Shown in pieces: positions 10,091 to 55,426 of a DNA stretch of 64,000 bases; positions within the stretch are counted from its first letter, which is position 1, and every line of letters starts with the position of its first letter. The stretch lies in assembly GCF_011634835.1 (NCBI RefSeq), contig NZ_SIRP01000001.1, forward strand, positions 496,001-560,000, in the 5' to 3' direction. Below the pieces are notes generated by a model that made no database searches, was not told the origin of the DNA, and saw nothing but the letters and a program-made list of their open reading frames with translations. Origin of the DNA: Isoptericola sp. BMS4 (lineage in GTDB: Bacteria; Actinomycetota; Actinomycetes; Actinomycetales; Cellulomonadaceae). Both the position numbers and the translations under genes were made by a program.

Positions 10091-13000
10091 TCACCAGCCG
10101 CCGGGGCTGAGGATCTTGCGGATGCGCTTCTCCGACACAGGGCCGTCGGTGCCGAGCTGCTGGGCGAACAGGGAGACGCGCAGCTCCTCCAGGAGCCAGC
10201 GCACCTCGGCGAGCTCCGCCGCGCGGGCGGGATCGGCGGGCCCGGCGGCGTACGCGGCGCGTGCCTTGTCGTAGGCCTCGGTGACGTCGTGCACGCGCCA
10301 GGCGAGCTCGGCGTCCCGCGCGGGATTGGTCTGCGCCTTCTCCAGGCGGTACGACGCCGCCCGCAGGTAGCGCACCAGGTGCGGCACCCGCCGCGGCGGC
10401 GTGGCCGAGACGAAGCCGTCGTGGATCAGCCCGGCCACGTGGTCGCGCACGTCCTGCAGCGTGTTGAGCAGGGCGAGCGACGACGACGCCCGGACCTCGC
10501 CCTCGACGGTGCGCCAGGCCGACAGCGCCGCGACGAGGTGCCCGACGATCCGGTGCACCTCGTCTTCCAGGTGGCGCCGCACGAACTCCACCGCGGCCGC
10601 GTACGAGTCGGCGTCGCGAATCTGCACGGCGACCGGCCCGCCGGTCGGCGTGCCCGGCGCCCTCTCCCCGTCGGGGCTGGTCAGCGCCATGACGGCGGCG
10701 AGCTGCAGGTCGGCCACGAGCGCGTCGGTGTTCCGGTACGGCGCGGCGGCGAGCGTCAGCGACTGCGACGACGTCCACCGCGACGTCACCCGCCCCGGCT
10801 GCAGCGCCGTCTCCGACAGCAGCAGCCGCCGCACCCCGCGCGCGTGCGCCACGTCCTGCTCGGCCTTGTCCGCCAGCACCCGCAGCGCCACCGTCGGCGC
10901 CCCCTTCGCGGCGCGCTCCTCCACCAGCGCCGGGTACCCCTGCACCACGACGCCGCCTCCGAGGTCCGTCGACACGGCCCGCGGCAGGCCGCCGTCGGCC
11001 AGTGACGACGGCCAGGTGCTCAGCCCCACCTGCTCGGCGACGACGGAAGGCGCGGAGGCGCCGCCGGACCCAGGCCGTGACGAGGCAGACGAGGGTGAGG
11101 GGACGGGGCCGGGCGAAAGCCCAGGCTGGCTGGGACTGGCGGGAGCCGAGGGAGGAACGACCGAGGCGGATGGACGCCTGGGCGTGCCCGGCCCCGTCCC
11201 CTCTCCCGACGCCGAGCCGGTTGCGGTCCGAGCAGCCTCCTCCAGCGCGATCCCCACTGCACCCTTGACCGCGGCACGGACAGCCGCTTCGGCCTGGGGG
11301 GCCAGACGCCTCTGGAGCGACAGGAGGTCCTTGGACTCGTCGAGCGGTGTGGGCTCCGCGGGGCGACCGCGGCGGCTGCCCTTGCCCTTGCTCTTGGACG
11401 GGGCGGGGGCAGGGTCCTCGACGCGGAACGTCATGCGCAGGTGCGCGGGCAGGCGCTCGACGCGCTCGGCGTCCCACACGTCGTCGGGGATGTCGACGTC
11501 ACGCAGTGCCCGGACGGCGCGGGTGAACGCGACGTGGAACGGCTCGGCCATGTCCCCGGCGCGGGTCATGTCCTCCCAGGCGGGCGTGTGCTCCCGCAGC
11601 CAGGCGGCGACGGCGGCGCCGACGTCGGGCGCGGGGACGAGCTCGCGGCGCACGGCCTTGGGCAGGGAGCGGATGGTGGCGACGCACAGCTCGTCGAGGA
11701 GGCCGGGCACCATCCAGTCGAACCCGTCGGGAGTGACGCGGTTGAGGATCGACAGGGGGATGTGGACGGTGACGCCGTCGGCCGCCGTCCCGGGGGAGAA
11801 CTGGTACGTGAGCGGCAGCGTGACCTCGCCCTGCGTCCAGGTCTCGGGGAACTCGTCGGTGTCGACGGCGGACGTGTCGACGAGCTGGTCGAGGCTGAAC
11901 GTCAGCAGGTCGGGCGTCTCGCGCCGCGCCTGCTTCCACCACGTGTCGAAGTGGCGGGCGCTGACGACGGACGCGGGGACGCGCTCGTCGTAGAAGGCGT
12001 ACAGGTCGTCCTCGGAGGCGACGAGGCCACGCTGCCGGGAGCGGGCCTCCAGCTCCTCGGCCTCGGCGAGGAGGCGCCGGTTCTCGGCGAAGAACCGGTG
12101 GTGGGTGGTCCACTCGCCCTCGACGAGGGCGTGGCGGACGAACATCTCGCGCGCGGCCTCCGGGTCGACCTTGGCGTACAGGACCTTGCGGTCCGCGACG
12201 ATGGGGACGCCGTACAGCAGCACCTTCTCGGTCGCCATGGCCGCACCCTGCTTGGTGGACCAGTGCGGCTCGGAGTAGGTCCGCTTGGCGAGGTCCCCCG
12301 CGAGGTCCTCGGCCCACTCGGGCTTGATGCGGGCGACGTCGCGCGCCCACAGGCGGGACGTCTCCACGAGCTCGCCGGCCATGATCCACGCCGGCGGCTT
12401 CTTGCTCAGCGGCGAGCCGGGGAAGATCGCGAACCGGGCGCCGCGGGCGCCGAGGTACTCGTTGCGGGCGCGCTTGGCCGCCTGCCGCAGCGCGCGGGCG
12501 CGCGCCTCGCCGCGCAGGTGCGCCACGGACGAGGCCTTGATCTCTGCCGTCTCCTGCATCCCGAGCTGCGACAGCAGCCCGGCGAGCAACGAGCGATGAA
12601 TGGTGTCGCCGTCCCAGGCTCGTTTCAGGTCGGCGTCCGTGGTTGCGGCGCCCGGCGCGGCGACGTCGGTGCTCGAGCTACCCGCACTCGCTCGTTCCTC
12701 GCTCGCGCCTGCCAGACCCACCACGCTCTTCGCATCCGACGTCGCCGCGCCGGCCTCGTGCGTCGGGCCGCCGTTGCCGCGTTCCTGGCCCGGGGTGGAG
12801 GGCTGGTAGCGCATGTCGATGCCGAGCGGCTTGGACATCTCGCGGAGCTGGGCGACGACGTCCTGCCATTCGCGGATGCGCAGGAAGTTGAGGTACTCGG
12901 CCTTGCAGAGGCGGCGGAAGGCGGAGGAGCCCATCTCGTGCTGCTGGGAGCGCACGTACTCCCACAGGTTGAGGTAGCTGAGGAAGTCGGACGTCGGGTC

Positions 13001-14758
13001 GGTGAAGCGGGCGTGCTGCTGGTCGGCCTGGGCGCGGAGCTCGGCGGGGCGCTCGCGCGGGTCCTGGATGGACAGGGCGGCGGCGATGATGGCGACCTCG
13101 CGCGCGACGCCGTGCTTCGCGCCCTCGATGATCATGCGGGCCAGGCGCGGGTCCATGGGGAGCTGCGCGAGGGTGCGGCCGACGTCGGTGAGGCGGGCGG
13201 CGCCGTCGCGGGTGGCTCCGCCCGTCGACAGGGCGCCGAGCTCGGTGAGGAGCTGGACGCCGTCGCGCACGGCGCGGGTGTCCGGGGGCTCGACGAACGG
13301 GAACCTCGCGACGTCGTCGGGCGTGGTGACGACGCCGACGGAGATCATCTGCAGCAGCACGGACGCGAGCGAGGTGCGCAGGATCTCGGGCTCGGTGAAC
13401 TCGGGGCGGCCGAGGAAATCGTCCTCGGAGTACAGGCGGATCGCGACGCCGTCGGCGAGACGCCCGGACCGGCCGGAGCGCTGGTTGGCGCTCGCCTGGC
13501 TGATGGGCTCGATCGGCAGGCGCTGCACCTTGGTCGCCTTGGAGTAGCGCGAGATGCGCGCGGTGCCCGGGTCGACGACGTAGTGGATGCCGGGCACCGT
13601 CAGCGACGTCTCCGCGACGTTCGTCGAGAGCACGATGCGTCGCCCGGGGTGCGGCTGGAAGACGCGGTGCTGCTCGGCGGACGACAGCCGCGAGTACAGC
13701 GGCAGGATCTCCACGTGCTGCGGGTGCTTCGGGTCGCGGACGCGCTCCTTGAGGTGCCCCTCGAGGGCGTCGTACGCGTCGTGGATCTCCCGCTCGCCGG
13801 AGAGGAAGACGAGGATGTCGCCCTGGCCCTCGCGCATCAGCTCGTCGCAGGCCTCGACGATGCCGGTGACGAGGTCCTTCTCCTCGCCCTTGGCCTTCTT
13901 CGGCCGGTCCGGGTCGGTGTCCGGGGAGAGCGGGCGGTAGCGGATCTCCACGGGGTAGGTGCGCCCGGAGACCTCGACGACGGGCGCGGCGTCCGGGAGG
14001 ACGTCGACGACGTCGGCTGGCGCCCCGCCGACCTCGGCGAGGTGGGACGGCGAGAAGTGGGCCGCGAACCGCTCGGAGTCGATCGTCGCGGACGTGATGA
14101 CGAGCTTGAGGTCCGGGCGGCGCGGCAGCAGCCGCGACAGGTAGCCGAGCAGGAAGTCGATGTTGAGCGACCGCTCGTGCGCCTCGTCGATGACGATCGT
14201 GTCGTACGCGAGCAGGTCCGGGTCCCGCTGGATCTGGGCCAGCAGGATGCCGTCGGTCATGACCTTGACCAGGGTGTCCTCGGACGACGTGTCCGTGAAC
14301 CGCACCTGGTAGCCGACGACGCCGCCGAGCTCGGTGCCGAGCTCCTCGGCCACGCGTTCCGCCACCGAGCGCGCGGCGATCCGGCGCGGCTGCGTGTGCC
14401 CGATCTGGCCCGCGCGCCCGCGCCCCAGCTCCAGCAGGATCTTCGGCAGCTGCGTGGTCTTGCCGGACCCGGTCTCACCCGCGACGACGACCACCTGGTG
14501 GTCGCGGATCGCGGCGGCGATGTCGTCGCGCCGCGCGGAGACGGGCAGCTGCTCCGGGTACGTGATCGGCGGGACCTCGACGGCGGCGCGCGCCTCCGCG
14601 GCCCGCGCGAGCTGCTCCCGGCTCACCCGCGCCGGCCGGCGGGCACCGAGCTGCCGGCCCTTGCCGCGTCCGCGCCGACGCCGGCCCTGCGGACGGTCGC
14701 CGCGCGCACTGCCGTCGTCGGCGGCGGGCTGCGGGGCGGGGGAGTGGTCGGTGCTCAC
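10091..14758 (-). CDS. hrpA: ATP-dependent RNA helicase HrpA (DEAH box)
   Basis: 1555 residues from GTG 14758, longer than the roughly 1300 of E. coli HrpA. An upstream ATG at 14797 is the alternative start; a GACAAT box 8 nt before the GTG favours the shorter form. Motifs: Walker A GETGSGKT (94-101), DEAH (191-194), SATID, and RNA-helicase motif VI QRSGRSGR. The C-terminal HA2, OB and DUF3418 regions follow. It unwinds RNA and in E. coli resolves stalled ribosomes. The extra length lies largely in two low-complexity linkers, near residues 669-702 and 1186-1221. Each is encoded by a hairpin element described separately. Convergent with the GH1 gene, 31 bp apart. Confidence 0.92.
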   Translation of the reverse strand: MSTDHSPAPQPAADDGSARGDRPQGRRRRGRGKGRQLGARRPARVSREQLARAAEARAAVEVPPITYPEQLPVSARRDDIAAAIRDHQVVVVAGETGSGKTTQLPKILLELGRGRAGQIGHTQPRRIAARSVAERVAEELGTELGGVVGYQVRFTDTSSEDTLVKVMTDGILLAQIQRDPDLLAYDTIVIDEAHERSLNIDFLLGYLSRLLPRRPDLKLVITSATIDSERFAAHFSPSHLAEVGGAPADVVDVLPDAAPVVEVSGRTYPVEIRYRPLSPDTDPDRPKKAKGEEKDLVTGIVEACDELMREGQGDILVFLSGEREIHDAYDALEGHLKERVRDPKHPQHVEILPLYSRLSSAEQHRVFQPHPGRRIVLSTNVAETSLTVPGIHYVVDPGTARISRYSKATKVQRLPIEPISQASANQRSGRSGRLADGVAIRLYSEDDFLGRPEFTEPEILRTSLASVLLQMISVGVVTTPDDVARFPFVEPPDTRAVRDGVQLLTELGALSTGGATRDGAARLTDVGRTLAQLPMDPRLARMIIEGAKHGVAREVAIIAAALSIQDPRERPAELRAQADQQHARFTDPTSDFLSYLNLWEYVRSQQHEMGSSAFRRLCKAEYLNFLRIREWQDVVAQLREMSKPLGIDMRYQPSTPGQERGNGGPTHEAGAATSDAKSVVGLAGASEERASAGSSSTDVAAPGAATTDADLKRAWDGDTIHRSLLAGLLSQLGMQETAEIKASSVAHLRGEARARALRQAAKRARNEYLGARGARFAIFPGSPLSKKPPAWIMAGELVETSRLWARDVARIKPEWAEDLAGDLAKRTYSEPHWSTKQGAAMATEKVLLYGVPIVADRKVLYAKVDPEAAREMFVRHALVEGEWTTHHRFFAENRRLLAEAEELEARSRQRGLVASEDDLYAFYDERVPASVVSARHFDTWWKQARRETPDLLTFSLDQLVDTSAVDTDEFPETWTQGEVTLPLTYQFSPGTAADGVTVHIPLSILNRVTPDGFDWMVPGLLDELCVATIRSLPKAVRRELVPAPDVGAAVAAWLREHTPAWEDMTRAGDMAEPFHVAFTRAVRALRDVDIPDDVWDAERVERLPAHLRMTFRVEDPAPAPSKSKGKGSRRGRPAEPTPLDESKDLLSLQRRLAPQAEAAVRAAVKGAVGIALEEAARTATGSASGEGTGPGTPRRPSASVVPPSAPASPSQPGLSPGPVPSPSSASSRPGSGGASAPSVVAEQVGLSTWPSSLADGGLPRAVSTDLGGGVVVQGYPALVEERAAKGAPTVALRVLADKAEQDVAHARGVRRLLLSETALQPGRVTSRWTSSQSLTLAAAPYRNTDALVADLQLAAVMALTSPDGERAPGTPTGGPVAVQIRDADSYAAAVEFVRRHLEDEVHRIVGHLVAALSAWRTVEGEVRASSSLALLNTLQDVRDHVAGLIHDGFVSATPPRRVPHLVRYLRAASYRLEKAQTNPARDAELAWRVHDVTEAYDKARAAYAAGPADPARAAELAEVRWLLEELRVSLFAQQLGTDGPVSEKRIRKILSPGGW
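11097..11203 (+). repeat. Hairpin element E1 inside hrpA
   Basis: The arms at 11097-11114 and 11186-11203 are perfect 18-bp inverted repeats (GAGGGGACGGGGCCGGGC and its complement). Inside them an 8-bp inner stem (GCCCAGGC 11119-11126, GCCTGGGC 11176-11183) encloses a 49-nt loop. The loop contains TGGG-n-CTGGC and, further on, GAG-n-GAGGAACGA-n-CGAG, which is also present in element E2. The conserved core reads on the plus strand, opposite to hrpA. It encodes a Pro/Ser/Gly-rich linker in the helicase. Confidence 0.75.
12652..12753 (-). repeat. Hairpin element E2 inside hrpA
   Basis: Perfect 18-bp arms at 12652-12669 and 12736-12753 (CCGGCGCGGCGACGTCGG and its complement) are unrelated in sequence to the arms of E1. 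Read on the hrpA strand, the 66-nt interior holds TGGG-n-CTGGC-n-GG and then GAG-n-GAGGAACGA-n-CGAG, matching E1. A short inner stem (TGC..GAGC / GCTC..GCA) mirrors the E1 layout. 102 bp is exactly 34 codons. The encoded peptide is a Ser/Ala-rich linker absent from ordinary HrpA. Confidence 0.75.
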
Positions 14759-14804
14759 GGGAGCCCATTGTCCCAAGGTCGGCAAGGCGAATCTCATCGT
14801 GCCG

Positions 14805-14896
14805 AACGGTTCCGTAGATTTGCGACTAACGGTACCGTAGAGATCTGACCAACGGTACGGTAGGAGTCTGGCCAGCGGGACCGTATCGATCGCACG
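14805..14896. repeat. Four 23-bp tandem repeats with palindromic cores (candidate operator array)
   Basis: Units start at 14805, 14828, 14851 and 14874, each exactly 23 bp. Each begins with a version of AACGGTACCGTAG: unit 2 has the perfect palindrome ACGGTACCGT, and units 1, 3 and 4 differ from it at one to three positions. The 23-bp pitch is close to two helical turns. The array fills the space between the divergent hrpA and ATPase genes and ends just before the ATPase Shine-Dalgarno. This is the arrangement expected of a cooperative repressor-binding site. Confidence 0.7.
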
Positions 14897-14910
14897 GGAG
14901 GGATTGCCGG

Positions 14911-16206
14911 ATGCGTGACCAGCGCTTTGATGAACGTCCTTATCGGCGGCGCGTCGTCGACGACGTCCTCGACGAGATCCACCCGGAGTCACCGGCGGTC
15001 GCCATCCAGGGGCCCAAGGGCGTGGGCAAGACGGCGACGGCGCTGCAGCGGGCGGCCGCCGTCGTGTCGTTCGACCTGCCTGCGGACCGCGCGCGCCTGG
15101 ACGCGGATCCGGGGCTCCTGACCTCGCTCGACTTCCCGCTGCTCGTGGACGAGTGGCAGCGCAGGCCCGAGTCCTGGGACTACGTGCGCCGCGCGGTCGA
15201 CGCCGGCGCCCCGCCGGGTGCGTACCTCTTGACGGGCAGCGCCACGACACCGCGCGGGGTCACGGTTCACTCCGGCGCCGGCAGGTTCGTCGACGTGCGG
15301 ATGCGTCCGCTCAGCCTGTTCGAGCGCGAGATCGCCGCGACGACGGTCAGCACGGCGTCGTTGCTGGCCGGCGGCGCGGATGTCGGCGGGGAGACCGCGG
15401 TCGGACTGACCGAGTACGTCGACGAGATCCTGGCCTCGGGCTTCCCTGGCGTGCGGAGCCTGTCGCCGCGGGTGCGGCGACAACGGCTCGACGCCTACGT
15501 GGACAACATCGTGCAGCGGGAGTTCGCCGAGCATGGCTACCCGGTCCGGCGCCCGGCGACGCTGAAGGCGTGGCTGCGCGCCTACGCGGCGGCCACGTCG
15601 TCGTCGACGTCGTACAACAAGATCCTGGACGCCGCGACGGCCGGTGAGAGCGGCAAGCCGGGACGGACCACGACGACGGTGTACCGCGACGTGCTCGCGC
15701 AGCTGTGGCAGCTCGACCCGGTCGAGGCCTGGGTGCCGGCACGCAACCACCTCGACCGGCTCACGCAGGCGCCGAAGCATCAGCTGGCGGACCCGGCCCT
15801 GGCGGCCGTGCTGCTCGGGCTCGACGCCGACCGGCTGCTGCGTGACGAGGGGCCGGGCGGGAACCTCCGCGACGGGACCGTCCTGGGCGCCCTCTTCGAG
15901 CACCTGGCCGCGTTGAGCATCCGCGTCTACGCCGAGGCGGCCGAGGCGCGGGTCGGGCACTTCAGGACGAAGGGCGGGGACCGAGAGGTCGACCTCGTCC
16001 TCGAGCGACGCGACGGTCGCGTCGTCGCGGTCGAGGTCAAGCTCACAGCGGTCCCGGACGACAAGGACCTCAGGCATCTGCGCTGGTTGAAGGAACAGCT
16101 GGGCGACGATCTGCTCGACTCGGTCGTCATCACGACCGGTCAGCACGCCTACCGGCGCCGACAGGACGGCATCGCCGTCGTTCCGCTGGCGTTGCTGGGA
16201 CCCTGA
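14911..16206 (+). CDS. AAA ATPase with DUF4143 nuclease-like domain
   Basis: 431 residues, ATG preceded by GGGAGGGA. The N-terminal AAA_14 module has Walker A GPKGVGKT (about residues 34-41) and Walker B LLVDEWQ, then the sensor-like LLTGSAT. The C-terminal DUF4143 part ends in a PD-(D/E)XK-like core: GGDREVDLVLERRDGRVVAVEVKLT. Proteins of this family are widespread in bacteria and archaea and are still functionally unclear; roles in regulation or DNA processing have been suggested. The four tandem operator-like repeats directly upstream suggest tight regulation, perhaps autoregulation, although no separate DNA-binding domain is visible. Monocistronic. Confidence 0.85.
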   Translation: MRDQRFDERPYRRRVVDDVLDEIHPESPAVAIQGPKGVGKTATALQRAAAVVSFDLPADRARLDADPGLLTSLDFPLLVDEWQRRPESWDYVRRAVDAGAPPGAYLLTGSATTPRGVTVHSGAGRFVDVRMRPLSLFEREIAATTVSTASLLAGGADVGGETAVGLTEYVDEILASGFPGVRSLSPRVRRQRLDAYVDNIVQREFAEHGYPVRRPATLKAWLRAYAAATSSSTSYNKILDAATAGESGKPGRTTTTVYRDVLAQLWQLDPVEAWVPARNHLDRLTQAPKHQLADPALAAVLLGLDADRLLRDEGPGGNLRDGTVLGALFEHLAALSIRVYAEAAEARVGHFRTKGGDREVDLVLERRDGRVVAVEVKLTAVPDDKDLRHLRWLKEQLGDDLLDSVVITTGQHAYRRRQDGIAVVPLALLGP

Positions 16207-53653: not shown

Positions 53654-53674
53654 CCCTCCCGCCGCCCCGCGTGC

Positions 53675-53732
53675 TGTGGGTACGCAGATGGCGTGATTCC
53701 GCCCCCGGAATCACGCCATCTGCGTACCCACA
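53675..53732. repeat. 58-bp palindromic element (copy A) at the 3' end of pxpBC
   Basis: Perfect 26-bp arms (53675-53700 and 53707-53732) around a 6-nt loop, starting TGTGGGTACGCAGA. It lies between the convergent symporter and PxpB-PxpC genes and forms the last seven codons and the stop of the latter (the protein ends VVGTQMA). It is about 76 % identical by eye, over the same 58-bp length, to copy B at 54166-54223. It may also work as a terminator. Confidence 0.8.
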
Positions 53733-55426
53733 ACCGTCGGGCGGAGGCGGACGAGCGTGCCGGGCGGCAGCTGGCCGAGCAGCCACAGGTGCGTGGCGGC
53801 CACTGCTCCGACGACGGGGTAGCCGCCCGTCAGCGGGTGGTCGACGCCGAACAGCACGGGCCGGCCGTCGGGCGGCACCTGCAGCGCCCCGGTGACGCAG
53901 CCCTCGCTGGGCAGCTCGCGGTCGCGGGACGACGGCGCCCGGTCGAGCGGGCGTGCGCCGTCGAGCCGCAGGCCCACCCGGTCCGACCGGGGTGTCACCT
54001 CCCAGTCCTGGCCGCCCAGCCGGGTGGCGGCGGCGTCGAACCAGTCGTCGTGCGGCCCGAGCACGACCGGCAGGGTCGCGACCTCGCCGGGCGCGGGCAG
54101 CGCGGCGGGGTCGGGCGCCCCGACGTCGTCGGTCGCCACGGCCCCCGGCAGCACCTCCGGCCTGCTGTGGGTACGCAGACGGCGCGCATCGCGCCCCGAT
54201 TCCCTGCCATCTGTGTACCCACAACGGACGCGGGTGCCCGGTGCGAGCGGGGCGGGACCGAGGCCGGACAAGACGTCGGTGGACCGGGAGCCGAGCACGG
54301 GCGGCACGTCGAGGCCGCCGCGCACCGCGACGTAGGTGCGCCAGCCCCGCGCCGGCGCACCGAGGGCGAGCTCGTCGCCGTCGGCGAGCCGCAGCGCCCG
54401 GCCGACCGGGACCGGGTCGGCCCGCTCGTCCGCCTGCTCGACGCGGGCCTGGTGGACGACGGCGCCCGGGTCGGCCCCGGCGAGCGCCACGACCAGCGGG
54501 CCGCGCGCACGGATCCGCAGCCCGCCGCCCACCGCCTCGAGTGCCGCCGTGCCGGGCGGGTTGCCCACCGCGCGGTTCGCGGCGCGCAGGCTGCGTGGGT
54601 CGGCCGCGCCGGACGCCGACACCCCGAGGTGGGCGAGCCCCGGGCGGCCGAGGTCCTGCACCAGCGTCTGCATGCCCGAGGCCAGCACCTCCAGCCCGGC
54701 GCCGCCCGTCCCGTCGGCAGTCCCGGATCTGGTCGGCAGTCCGGACTGCCGACCAGATCCGGGACTGCCGACCTGATCGCGGGGCGCGGCCCGTGCCCGC
54801 GGGCGCACCGCGACGAACCGGACCCGGTCCCCCGGGGCCCAGGGCGTCGGCGGGTCGCGCTCGGCGTCCCAGGTCACGACGTCGGTGCGGCCCACGAGCT
54901 GCCACCCGCCGGGGCTCTCGCGCGGGTACACGCCCGACCAGGGGCCGGCCATCGCCACCGCGCCGGCCGGCACGCGGGTGCGCGGCGTGGCCCGGCGCGG
55001 CACGGACAGGCCCGGGTCGTCGCCCGTGAGGTAGGCGAACCCGGGCGCGAACCCCACGAACCCGACCGTCCACGCCGCCGCCGTGTGGCGCCGCACCAGC
55101 GCGTCGGTGCCGCAGCCCAGCAGCCGCGCCACCTCGTCGAGGTCCGCGCCGTCGTACACCGTGGGGACCTCGACGAGCCGTCCGCCGCCCTCGGCCACGT
55201 CAGGCGCCCGGGCGACGGTCCCGGCGAGGGCCCGGAGCGCGCCCGCGAGGCCGGCCGCGTCCACGCGCCAGGGGTCGAACGACACCAGCAGCGTGCGCGC
55301 GCCGGGCACCGTCTCGCCGACGCCGGGCACGGGGTCGGCCCGCAGCCGCGCGTGCAGCGCCACGGCGTGCGCGAGGTCGTCCAGCTCGACCAGCAGCACG
55401 TCGTCGCGGGCCCGGCGGACGCGCAC
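53711..55426 (-). CDS. 5-oxoprolinase subunits B and C, fused (PxpB-PxpC; KipI/KipA-like)
   Basis: 571 residues from GTG 55426, 3 nt after the pxpA stop. Residues about 1-185 are PxpB/KipI-like: LLVSFDP, EVPTVYDGADLDEVA, VGFVGFAPGFAYLTGDDPGLSVPRRATPRTRVPAGAVAMAGPWSGVYPRESPGGWQLVGRT. Residues about 215-571 are PxpC/KipA-like: LEVLASGMQTLVQDLGRPGLAHLGVSASGAADPRSLRAANRAVGN, PVLGSRSTDVLSGLG, GVDHPLTGGYPVVGAVA. With PxpA it would cleave 5-oxoproline to glutamate using ATP. Three palindromic elements fall in this gene: one at the B/C junction, one within C, and one that supplies the stop codon. Confidence 0.9.
   Translation of the reverse strand: MRVRRARDDVLLVELDDLAHAVALHARLRADPVPGVGETVPGARTLLVSFDPWRVDAAGLAGALRALAGTVARAPDVAEGGGRLVEVPTVYDGADLDEVARLLGCGTDALVRRHTAAAWTVGFVGFAPGFAYLTGDDPGLSVPRRATPRTRVPAGAVAMAGPWSGVYPRESPGGWQLVGRTDVVTWDAERDPPTPWAPGDRVRFVAVRPRARAAPRDQVGSPGSGRQSGLPTRSGTADGTGGAGLEVLASGMQTLVQDLGRPGLAHLGVSASGAADPRSLRAANRAVGNPPGTAALEAVGGGLRIRARGPLVVALAGADPGAVVHQARVEQADERADPVPVGRALRLADGDELALGAPARGWRTYVAVRGGLDVPPVLGSRSTDVLSGLGPAPLAPGTRVRCGYTDGRESGRDARRLRTHSRPEVLPGAVATDDVGAPDPAALPAPGEVATLPVVLGPHDDWFDAAATRLGGQDWEVTPRSDRVGLRLDGARPLDRAPSSRDRELPSEGCVTGALQVPPDGRPVLFGVDHPLTGGYPVVGAVAATHLWLLGQLPPGTLVRLRPTVVGTQMA
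54166..54223. repeat. 58-bp palindromic element (copy B) inside pxpC
   Basis: It begins TGTGGGTACGCAGACGG and ends CCATCTGTGTACCCACA. It is the same length as copy A and matches it at about 44 of 58 positions by eye, but its arms have lost perfect pairing in the middle. It encodes the odd stretch CGYTDGRESGRDARRLRTHS in the PxpC part. It looks like an older, decayed insertion of the same family. Confidence 0.75.
54713..54772. repeat. 60-bp perfect palindrome at the PxpB/PxpC junction
   Basis: Two 30-bp arms with no loop (54713-54742 and 54743-54772) are exact reverse complements. GTCGGCAGTCC occurs twice in each arm region. Sixty bases are exactly 20 codons, giving an in-frame GSPGSGRQSGLPTRSGTAD-type linker between the two fused subunits. 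Its sequence is unrelated to copies A and B. Confidence 0.85.

Follow-up and report, generated by a model that had tools for sequence, protein, structure and literature searches.

A dispersed family of palindromic elements with a constant core and locus-specific arms in Isoptericola and related Actinobacteria

The hrpA gene of Isoptericola sp. BMS4 carries two hairpin-forming sequences, E1 and E2, and the question raised by this locus is whether they resemble each other by chance, as a selected structure, or as copies of a mobile palindrome. A sequence-only reading of the window (the whole 64,000-nucleotide stretch of contig NZ_SIRP01000001.1 that was analysed) had reported perfect 18-bp inverted ends for both (E1, 11097–11203; E2, 12652–12753), arms unrelated between the two, loop motifs common to both in opposite orientation, and an in-frame location within hrpA. 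The inverted ends are indeed present at these positions, sequence comparison bore out the unrelated arms and the common, oppositely oriented loop motifs, and both elements lie in frame in hrpA (Table 1), whose product shows the Pfam domains DUF3418 (3.2e-190), OB_NTP_bind, HA2, Helicase_C, and DEAD. The observation was correct and is part of something larger, a dispersed element family, called here type A.

E1, E2 and the type A family

The perfect ends of E1 lengthen to 22 bp with one mismatch, corresponding to the outer arms given in Table 1. E2 is diverged: it retains TGGTGGGTCTGGCAGG and GAGGAACGA and has lost the usual inner stem, the best match of its core to another copy being found at E 5.3e-6. 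The window contains 14 perfect stems of at least 12 bp (loop <100), E1 and E2 being the two longest with a long loop, and three mononucleotide shuffles of the window gave 3, 0, and 2 such stems. Two further hairpins, at 53674–53732 and 54712–54772, pair perfectly over 27 and 28 bp and have loops of 4 bases.

Below, G000 denotes the genome of the window itself, other G numbers the genomes of relatives, and L numbers individual loci. Used as a DNA query, E1 gave 29 matches in its own genome, including its own two inverted arms and some gap-split copies. A covariance model (R1), built from 15 copies (alignment A2) with E2 omitted as too diverged, produced 36 matches in G000 at E ≤1, with scores of up to 126.9 bits. 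Merging opposite-strand duplicates and counting each of four places split by N runs as a single copy reduced these to about 27 core-bearing copies, with E1, E2, and the four gap-cut places included, a number to be read as a lower bound, as 150 of 8806 first-look candidates were scored. One of the split places (C1:4259k) shows cores opposite in direction on its two sides and may be two copies, and a core-less hairpin (L084) was found besides the 27 or so. Seven pattern matches (L041, L049–L053, and L058) were judged to be chance matches in coding sequence.

The four scaffold gaps (L021–L024, L031/L032, and L037/L038) lie in or beside copies, with core on both sides; type A hairpins may break assemblies and so be undercounted in drafts. 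A third of the main scaffold (G000:C1, 1.87–3.32 Mb) contains 1 type A copy, against about 26 elsewhere.

The element is a hairpin of about 110 bp in which the core is constant, the outer stem being largely locus-specific in sequence and almost fixed in length. Read 5′ to 3′ on the motif strand, it consists of a private outer arm, an inner arm (often NTGTCG), AGGC, TGG-n-GGGYCTGGCGGGAG, an apical stem-loop, CGGATGG, GCCT, and the returning inner and outer arms, so that TGG-n-GGGYCTGGCGGGAG faces CGGATGG in a constant asymmetric internal loop; in the motif table, strand 1 of this loop was demanded by the filter and strand 2 was sometimes parsed within the apical stem. The apical stem covaries and its loop is GAGG[A/G]ACGA. 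The outer stem usually extends 26–28 bp beyond the core and is nearly perfectly paired, arms of 26–28 beyond AGGC/GCCT being found in 20 of 43 parsed rows; the remaining rows include copies cut by gaps, copies with bulged arms, and those of Antribacter, whose arms reach 35, and some arms were read as very short where a bulge adjoins the inner stem. In the other palindromic repeats compared the arms are the signature, whereas type A has a constant middle flanked by private outer arms.

Alignment A2 had 87.3% of its cells paired, compared to 64.1% after shuffling and 37.5–49.0% after sliding by 1–3 columns, and 29 of its 39 pairs showed changes on both sides. Its covariation score was 0.577, against 0.156 (shuffled) and 0.091–0.138 (slid), and 0 of 500 shuffles reached it. 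The outer-arm pairs of 37 copies, excluding L077 and L079 as irregular, comprised 820 Watson–Crick pairs, 17 G-U pairs, and 51 mismatches. The sequence-only reading had proposed to look for further copies with a covariance model and for covariation of the arms; copies with the core were found in related genomes, and the arms covary both across copies and between orthologous loci.

A chance resemblance in GC-rich linker DNA could draw on the GC-rich, low-complexity context and on the weak conservation of E2. It is refuted, and keeps practically no probability in our estimate, by the matches of E1 to same-genome copies (best E 1.5e-19), by those of R1, which also finds E2 although built without it, and by the shuffle-tested covariation.

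Table 1. Coordinates of hrpA and of the elements within it (positions in the window)
Feature	Position	Strand	Basis
hrpA, DEAH helicase (HrpA-type) with DUF3418, host of E1 and E2	10091–15250	−	1719-aa ORF, Pfam domains
E1, type A palindromic element	11093–11207	+ (motif strand, antisense to hrpA)	Inverted repeat, R1 83.1 bits, G015 orthologous copy with near-identical core
E1 outer arm, 5′ side, locus-specific	11093–11114	+	95% complementary to 11186–11207
E1 outer arm, 3′ side	11186–11207	+	Partner of 11093–11114
E1 inner stem GCCCAGGC	11119–11126	+	Pairs with 11176–11183; sequence reading and alignment A2
E1 conserved internal-loop strand 1 TGGCTGGGACTGGCGGGAG	11127–11145	+	Alignment A2, motif table over further loci
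E1 apical stem-loop CCGAGG-GAGGAACGA-CCGAGG	11146–11166	+	Covarying helix 2 of alignment A2
E1 conserved internal-loop strand 2 CGGATGG	11167–11173	+	Alignment A2, motif table
E2, diverged type A element	12652–12753	− (motif strand, sense to hrpA)	Perfect 18-bp inverted ends, R1 42.8 bits
E2 apical loop GAGGAACGA	12692–12700	−	Pattern match
E2 conserved internal-loop strand 1 TGGTGGGTCTGGCAGG	12708–12723	−	Read from sequence

Private arms and concerted change at orthologous loci

Core and outer-arm identity were uncorrelated (−0.001) among the 105 pairs formed by the 15 aligned G000 copies, and the 20 G000 pairs with core identity of at least 0.9 showed a mean outer-arm identity of 0.42, against a composition expectation of 0.40 (5′ outer arm). 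Copies L117, L118, L119, L121, and L123 of Antribacter soli presented cores identical over 55 nt, apical stem included, and 5′ arms that match next to the core for 11, 11, 6, and 0 nt in the four pairs tested and then diverge. As the apical stem, which like the arms is free to vary as long as it pairs, is identical in these copies while the outer arms are unshared, their cores seem to be recent or homogenised. Slow drift as the sole cause of private arms is disfavoured by such identical cores with differing outer arms in one genome, and so is a simple one-step model, because the joint between shared core and private arm does not lie at a fixed place.

Concerted arm change at fixed loci is real, as observed in orthologous copies. 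The pair L101/L105 (G010/G013), whose orthology is supported by flanks of 85% identity over 3.1 kb and by an unusual GAGAC/GTCTC closing stem common to both, showed 14 of 24 arm pairs unchanged, 9 changed on both sides and 1 on one side, with 3 differences in 55 nt of core. For L096/L102 (flanks 88%) the figures were 17 unchanged, 6 both-side, 0 one-side, and 1 unpaired (core 5/55), and for the ABC-F copies of G000 and G014, which have an unusual apical stem in common, 11, 9, 1, and 3, respectively (core 5/55). The 18 outer pairs of hrpA E1 compared between G000 and G015 comprised 12 unchanged, 5 both-side, 0 one-side, and 1 unpaired, with a single core difference. Pooled, these four well-supported cases contain 29 arm pairs with both partners changed, 2 with a single partner changed, and 5 that are unpaired in one of the copies. 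Of the double changes, 16 require a mismatched intermediate and 13 could go via G-U. Less certain orthologues gave 9 double and 0 one-sided changes (ABC-F G000/G010, core 16/55), 9 and 0 (ABC-F G000/G001, core 11/55), 2 and 1 (ABC-F G014/G001, core 10/55), and 8 and 0 (L106/L088, with cores of different subfamilies). The arms are not always fast, as those of the ABC-F copies of G010 and G013 are near-unchanged (23 of 24 pairs). Between orthologous copies the core is more stable than the arms (3/55 nt versus 9/24 pairs changed on both sides in L101/L105; 5/55 versus 9/24 in ABC-F G000/G014).

Template switching during replication has been described as yielding perfect stems and multi-base compensatory changes at once (PMC8794818, available text). 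The double changes fit this process at least as well as stepwise selection, since the latter should leave more one-sided states, and template switching would keep the arms paired with or without selection. The claim of the sequence-only reading that a conserved loop with a covarying stem marks a selected structure or a mobile palindrome is supported in general terms, but covariation alone is no proof of a selected structure, because double changes far exceed one-sided ones (29 versus 2), as template switching predicts. Type A stems are, in this respect, a warning that strong covariation need not signify a functional RNA, and they offer a natural test of how near-perfect DNA stems arise and persist, by structure selection or by template switching.

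Gene ends, hrpA linkers and distribution

The surroundings of 64 loci were analysed with a codon-bias gene caller, seeking a stop codon within 150 nt on each side and counting orthologous copies separately, so that they are not independent. A gene end was found on the antisense side only in 22 loci, on the sense side only in 6, and on both sides in 12, whereas 13 copies lie inside reading frames (10 antisense, 3 sense) and 11 showed neither. The element is not special to hrpA: a called gene end stands at it in 40 of the 64 loci, with 42 of the 52 ends found being no more than 55 nt away, and in-frame copies occur in unrelated protein genes, namely hrpA (two) and that of an ABC-F-like ATPase. 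One feature of intrinsic terminators, a stable hairpin close behind the stop codon, is present. No T-run was found after the hairpins (mean of 2.5 and 1.3 T in 15 nt; 15 copies, counted without a control). Terminators of actinobacteria are often devoid of a T-run.

For three G000 sites (L066, L070, and L071), 50 orthologous regions from 17 congeners were compared, and the best hairpin was located at the gene end in 17/17, 6/17, and 14/16 regions, respectively. Perfect hairpins (stem ≥11, loop ≤12) were present in 24 of 98 gene-end bins versus 1 of 447 other bins, the bins having been chosen after the best-hairpin survey of the same three sites. The core itself was present in only 1 of the 50 regions, that of G014 at site L066. 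There, judged by eye, the G014 outer arms look like the plain terminator found in G015 and G007, GGCGGGAG[AT/GC]CGGGA, and G001, which the hrpA tree places closest to G014, has a different hairpin. The ABC-F linker without the element, in 13 relatives, contained no stem scoring above 11 in or beside it, and in three of these relatives a plain hairpin lies some 450 nt away from the anchor. Among four candidate empty sites searched between G010 and G013, L107, L108, and L109 were confounded by larger changes; the usable one (G010:237k against G013) had a longest perfect stem of 8 bp in 130 nt, and no clear target-site duplication was seen at it.

The two hrpA linkers were compared in 18 genomes. 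That of E1 contains type A in G000, G014, and G015, damaged type A in G007 and G001, a different element, type B, in eight (G002, G008, G009, G010, G012, G013, G016, and G017), and no recognised element in G003, G004, G005, G006, and G011. That of E2 carries type A in G000 and G005, type B in G009, G010, and G013, and another hairpin, by eye, in G001, G004, and G014. The description of these sequences as linkers that HrpA normally lacks therefore holds only in part, as in this genus both are hotspots for at least two unrelated palindromic elements, found in different species. The type B core, GTCAAGCCGTAGCGGAG-apical-CGTGAGCGAG, is unrelated to that of type A and was found at both linkers, in both orientations, in 8 congeners (L126, L127, L132, L138, L139, L140, L141, and L142). 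Its stems are 27–29 bp long in 11 of 11 hrpA copies, with up to 5 mismatches, and differ by locus, the mean identity being 0.96 for the core and 0.58 for the outer arms. The additional E2-linker hairpin (L133 in G001, L137 in G004, L128 in G014) is in frame and reads TGTCAG...ATACCC...CTGACA in G001 and G004, that of G014 being a weaker relative.

Ten of 38 genomes (G000 and relatives) were matched at E ≤0.01, including 8 of 17 congeners; the canonical core is present in 6 of these 17 (G001, G005, G010, G013, G014, and G015), and G002, G006, and one of three G005 matches carry a shorter related core, labelled "A2" (GAGAGCCGAGCGAGGAACGAGCGAATCATTCG; L094, L093, and L104, respectively), whose long arms again vary by copy. 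L100 of G034 was judged doubtful or of another core and was omitted. The exact core pattern was found in 15 stretches of named genomes, ten in Antribacter soli, two in Actinotalea caeni, and one each in Isoptericola halalbus, an Isoptericola MAG, and Pseudactinotalea suaedae; the three of these species whose taxonomy was looked up belong to the Micrococcales. The I. halalbus copy (L110) equals the G014 copy L103 over 177 of 177 compared bases, which fits Isoptericola as the probable genus of the window. Viral contigs yielded 0 stretches with the exact pattern, and a viral origin was rejected on this ground. An order-wide scan with strict filters and 12 candidates scored per genome matched 21 of 297 genomes and 12 of 94 genera (E ≤1e-5), and after locus inspection the motif was accepted in 9 of the 94 sampled genera, from five families; the matches in G213, G089, and G251 were left out of the genus count as doubtful or of another core. 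In genus g68 (G142, G242, G169, G313, and G294) the apical hairpin is replaced and the internal-loop strands are kept. The family is patchy, ranging from no matches to about 27 within one genus.

Relation to known systems and possible origin

REP elements (GTAG- or CGTC-tagged and associated with RAYT transposases) are described as small palindromes of 20–40 bp in many copies, mostly located downstream of genes or between convergent genes and some within genes, with alternative complementary stem residues within families (PMC3733652, in the text available). Type A is also small, multicopy, palindromic, and found mostly behind genes and in some cases inside them, but it differs from the REPs of that description in its size of about 110 bp and its largely private outer stem. 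In the alignment of type A copies neither end bears a GTAG or CGTC tag, and GGGAG precedes the base of the apical stem; the Y1 (RAYT) transposase domain PF01797 was detected at E ≤1e-5 in 0 of 18 genomes of the genus, while the control matched in 5 of 14 genomes. With both the end tag and the transposase missing, a REP/RAYT system was rejected. Rickettsia palindromic elements, of about 150 bp, are reported in frame inside unrelated genes (PMC10969869, partial text), to which the in-frame palindromes of hrpA (twice) and the ABC-F-like ATPase gene can be likened; judged by description only, type A differs in lying mainly behind stop codons and in outer arms that vary between copies. The same source, as far as its accessible text goes, presents MITEs as short and non-autonomous and mentions a terminator-like role proposed for some, e.g., the pneumococcal SPRITE (PMC10969869).

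MITE ends are typically common to the copies of a family. In type A, however, the ends differ and the middle is shared: shared terminal inverted repeats are absent, outer arms being near background identity and shared for 0–11 nt beside identical cores (four pairs). REPs, Rickettsia elements, and MITEs are alike type A in lifestyle, and for REPs and MITEs a defining feature is missing in each case. Template-switch hairpins show the same perfect stems and multi-base compensatory changes, according to the available text of PMC8794818, but the mechanism accounts for the arms only and not for a constant, dispersed core. Long perfect inverted repeats have also been described in coding genes of Nematomorpha mitochondria; they resemble type A in being long inverted repeats within genes, and the part of that source available to us does not mention a core shared between palindromes (PMC6649704). 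Rfam gave 0 matches at gathering score in 20 type A loci and, at E ≤5, 8 matches in 17 loci, all below gathering (including MIR8670 on copy L008, with E 0.018 and 32.8 bits versus a gathering score of 150), so a known RNA family was rejected. The type A family was not found described in the literature or in Rfam, and so far as these searches reach (most subscription papers lie outside the literature coverage) it is undescribed.

Our leading interpretation, to which we give about an even chance, regards type A as a non-autonomous, mobile palindromic element with a main role as a terminator hairpin and with arms kept paired by template switching; we infer mobility, terminator role, and template switching from sequence comparison. 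What is copied between places would be the core plus a varying length of adjacent arm, and the outer arms would be either acquired on insertion or quickly diverging afterwards; their pairing would persist because one arm is rewritten from its partner by template switching during replication, whether or not selection acts. Copies behind stop codons would act as transcription-terminator hairpins, often for both converging genes, those in protein linkers (e.g., hrpA) would be tolerated in-frame passengers, and the mobilising enzyme would be one other than a RAYT/Y1 transposase. If the terminator role holds, GC-rich actinobacteria would have in type A a mobile source of terminators. The reading as a passive passenger is weakened by orthologous cores that change less than the arms; the core looks selected in place or homogenised, and its conservation favours selection or conversion over a pure passenger, which is the main weakness of the mobile interpretation.

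That steadiness (3/55 nt in L101/L105, against 9/24 pairs double-changed) would instead be expected of a functional structured RNA, for example, a protein-bound 3′-end or termination-control RNA in which the loops form the binding site, the stems are selected, and the copies are inherited and not mobile. The same internal-loop motif in five families of the order (though with the apical hairpin replaced in g68), the orientation bias to adjacent genes (22 versus 6), the place behind stop codons, and the 13 of 29 double changes reachable through G-U point the same way. We regard this alternative as possible, if unlikely, given that G-U makes up only 2.0% of paired cells, that matches range from none to about 27 within one genus, and that reading-frame copies occur in both orientations (10 antisense, 3 sense), which a single mRNA motif cannot explain. 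Another proposal, in which only the core moves and inserts into the loops of existing terminator stems, the private arms being old terminators, would account for identical cores carrying differing arms, for the plain hairpins often found at the same sites in relatives, and for the likeness by eye between the L066 arms of G014 and the G015/G007 terminator. However, G001, nearest to G014 in the hrpA tree, has a different hairpin there, many stems join the core gaplessly whereas plain hairpins mostly have loops of 3–7 nt, the 5′ arms, read in the direction of the element, are G-rich, and the stem length is nearly fixed. As the element-less ABC-F linker shows no strong hairpin in 13 relatives, and the usable empty site a stem of 8 bp, insertion into an existing hairpin does not appear to be a general rule; we keep this proposal as a rival and consider it doubtful.

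Empty coding sites without a strong hairpin would agree with a snap-back insertion, in which hairpin DNA joins a broken host strand and its 3′ end primes copying of the flank, generating a fresh, inverted second arm. Long near-perfect stems, private outer arms beside identical cores, and the similar stem length of the unrelated type B (27–29 bp in 11/11 hrpA copies) could be explained in this way, but the arm stretch shared beside identical cores varies (11, 11, 6, and 0 nt) and lacks the sharp joint predicted, no examined empty site is close enough to reveal one arm as ancestral, and concerted arm drift after insertion can mimic the outcome, so that we find it very improbable. A self-written hairpin, that is, a mobile constant core whose insertion adds an inverted copy of a measured ~28 bp of flanking host DNA, with type A and type B produced by the same process and the product doubling as a bidirectional terminator, we take to be an improbable but conceivable version of events.

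Other repeats were observed near gene ends and type A copies in the relatives. Loci L220 (G006), L219 (G004), and L226 (G014) present gene-end hairpins made of CGAGGTAG-like repeats, that of G006 with a perfect stem of 49 bp, and a short array of CGCTGACTCGCGTG-like units, absent in the sister species G013, lies beside the type A copy of L107 (G010), at about 1310–1480.
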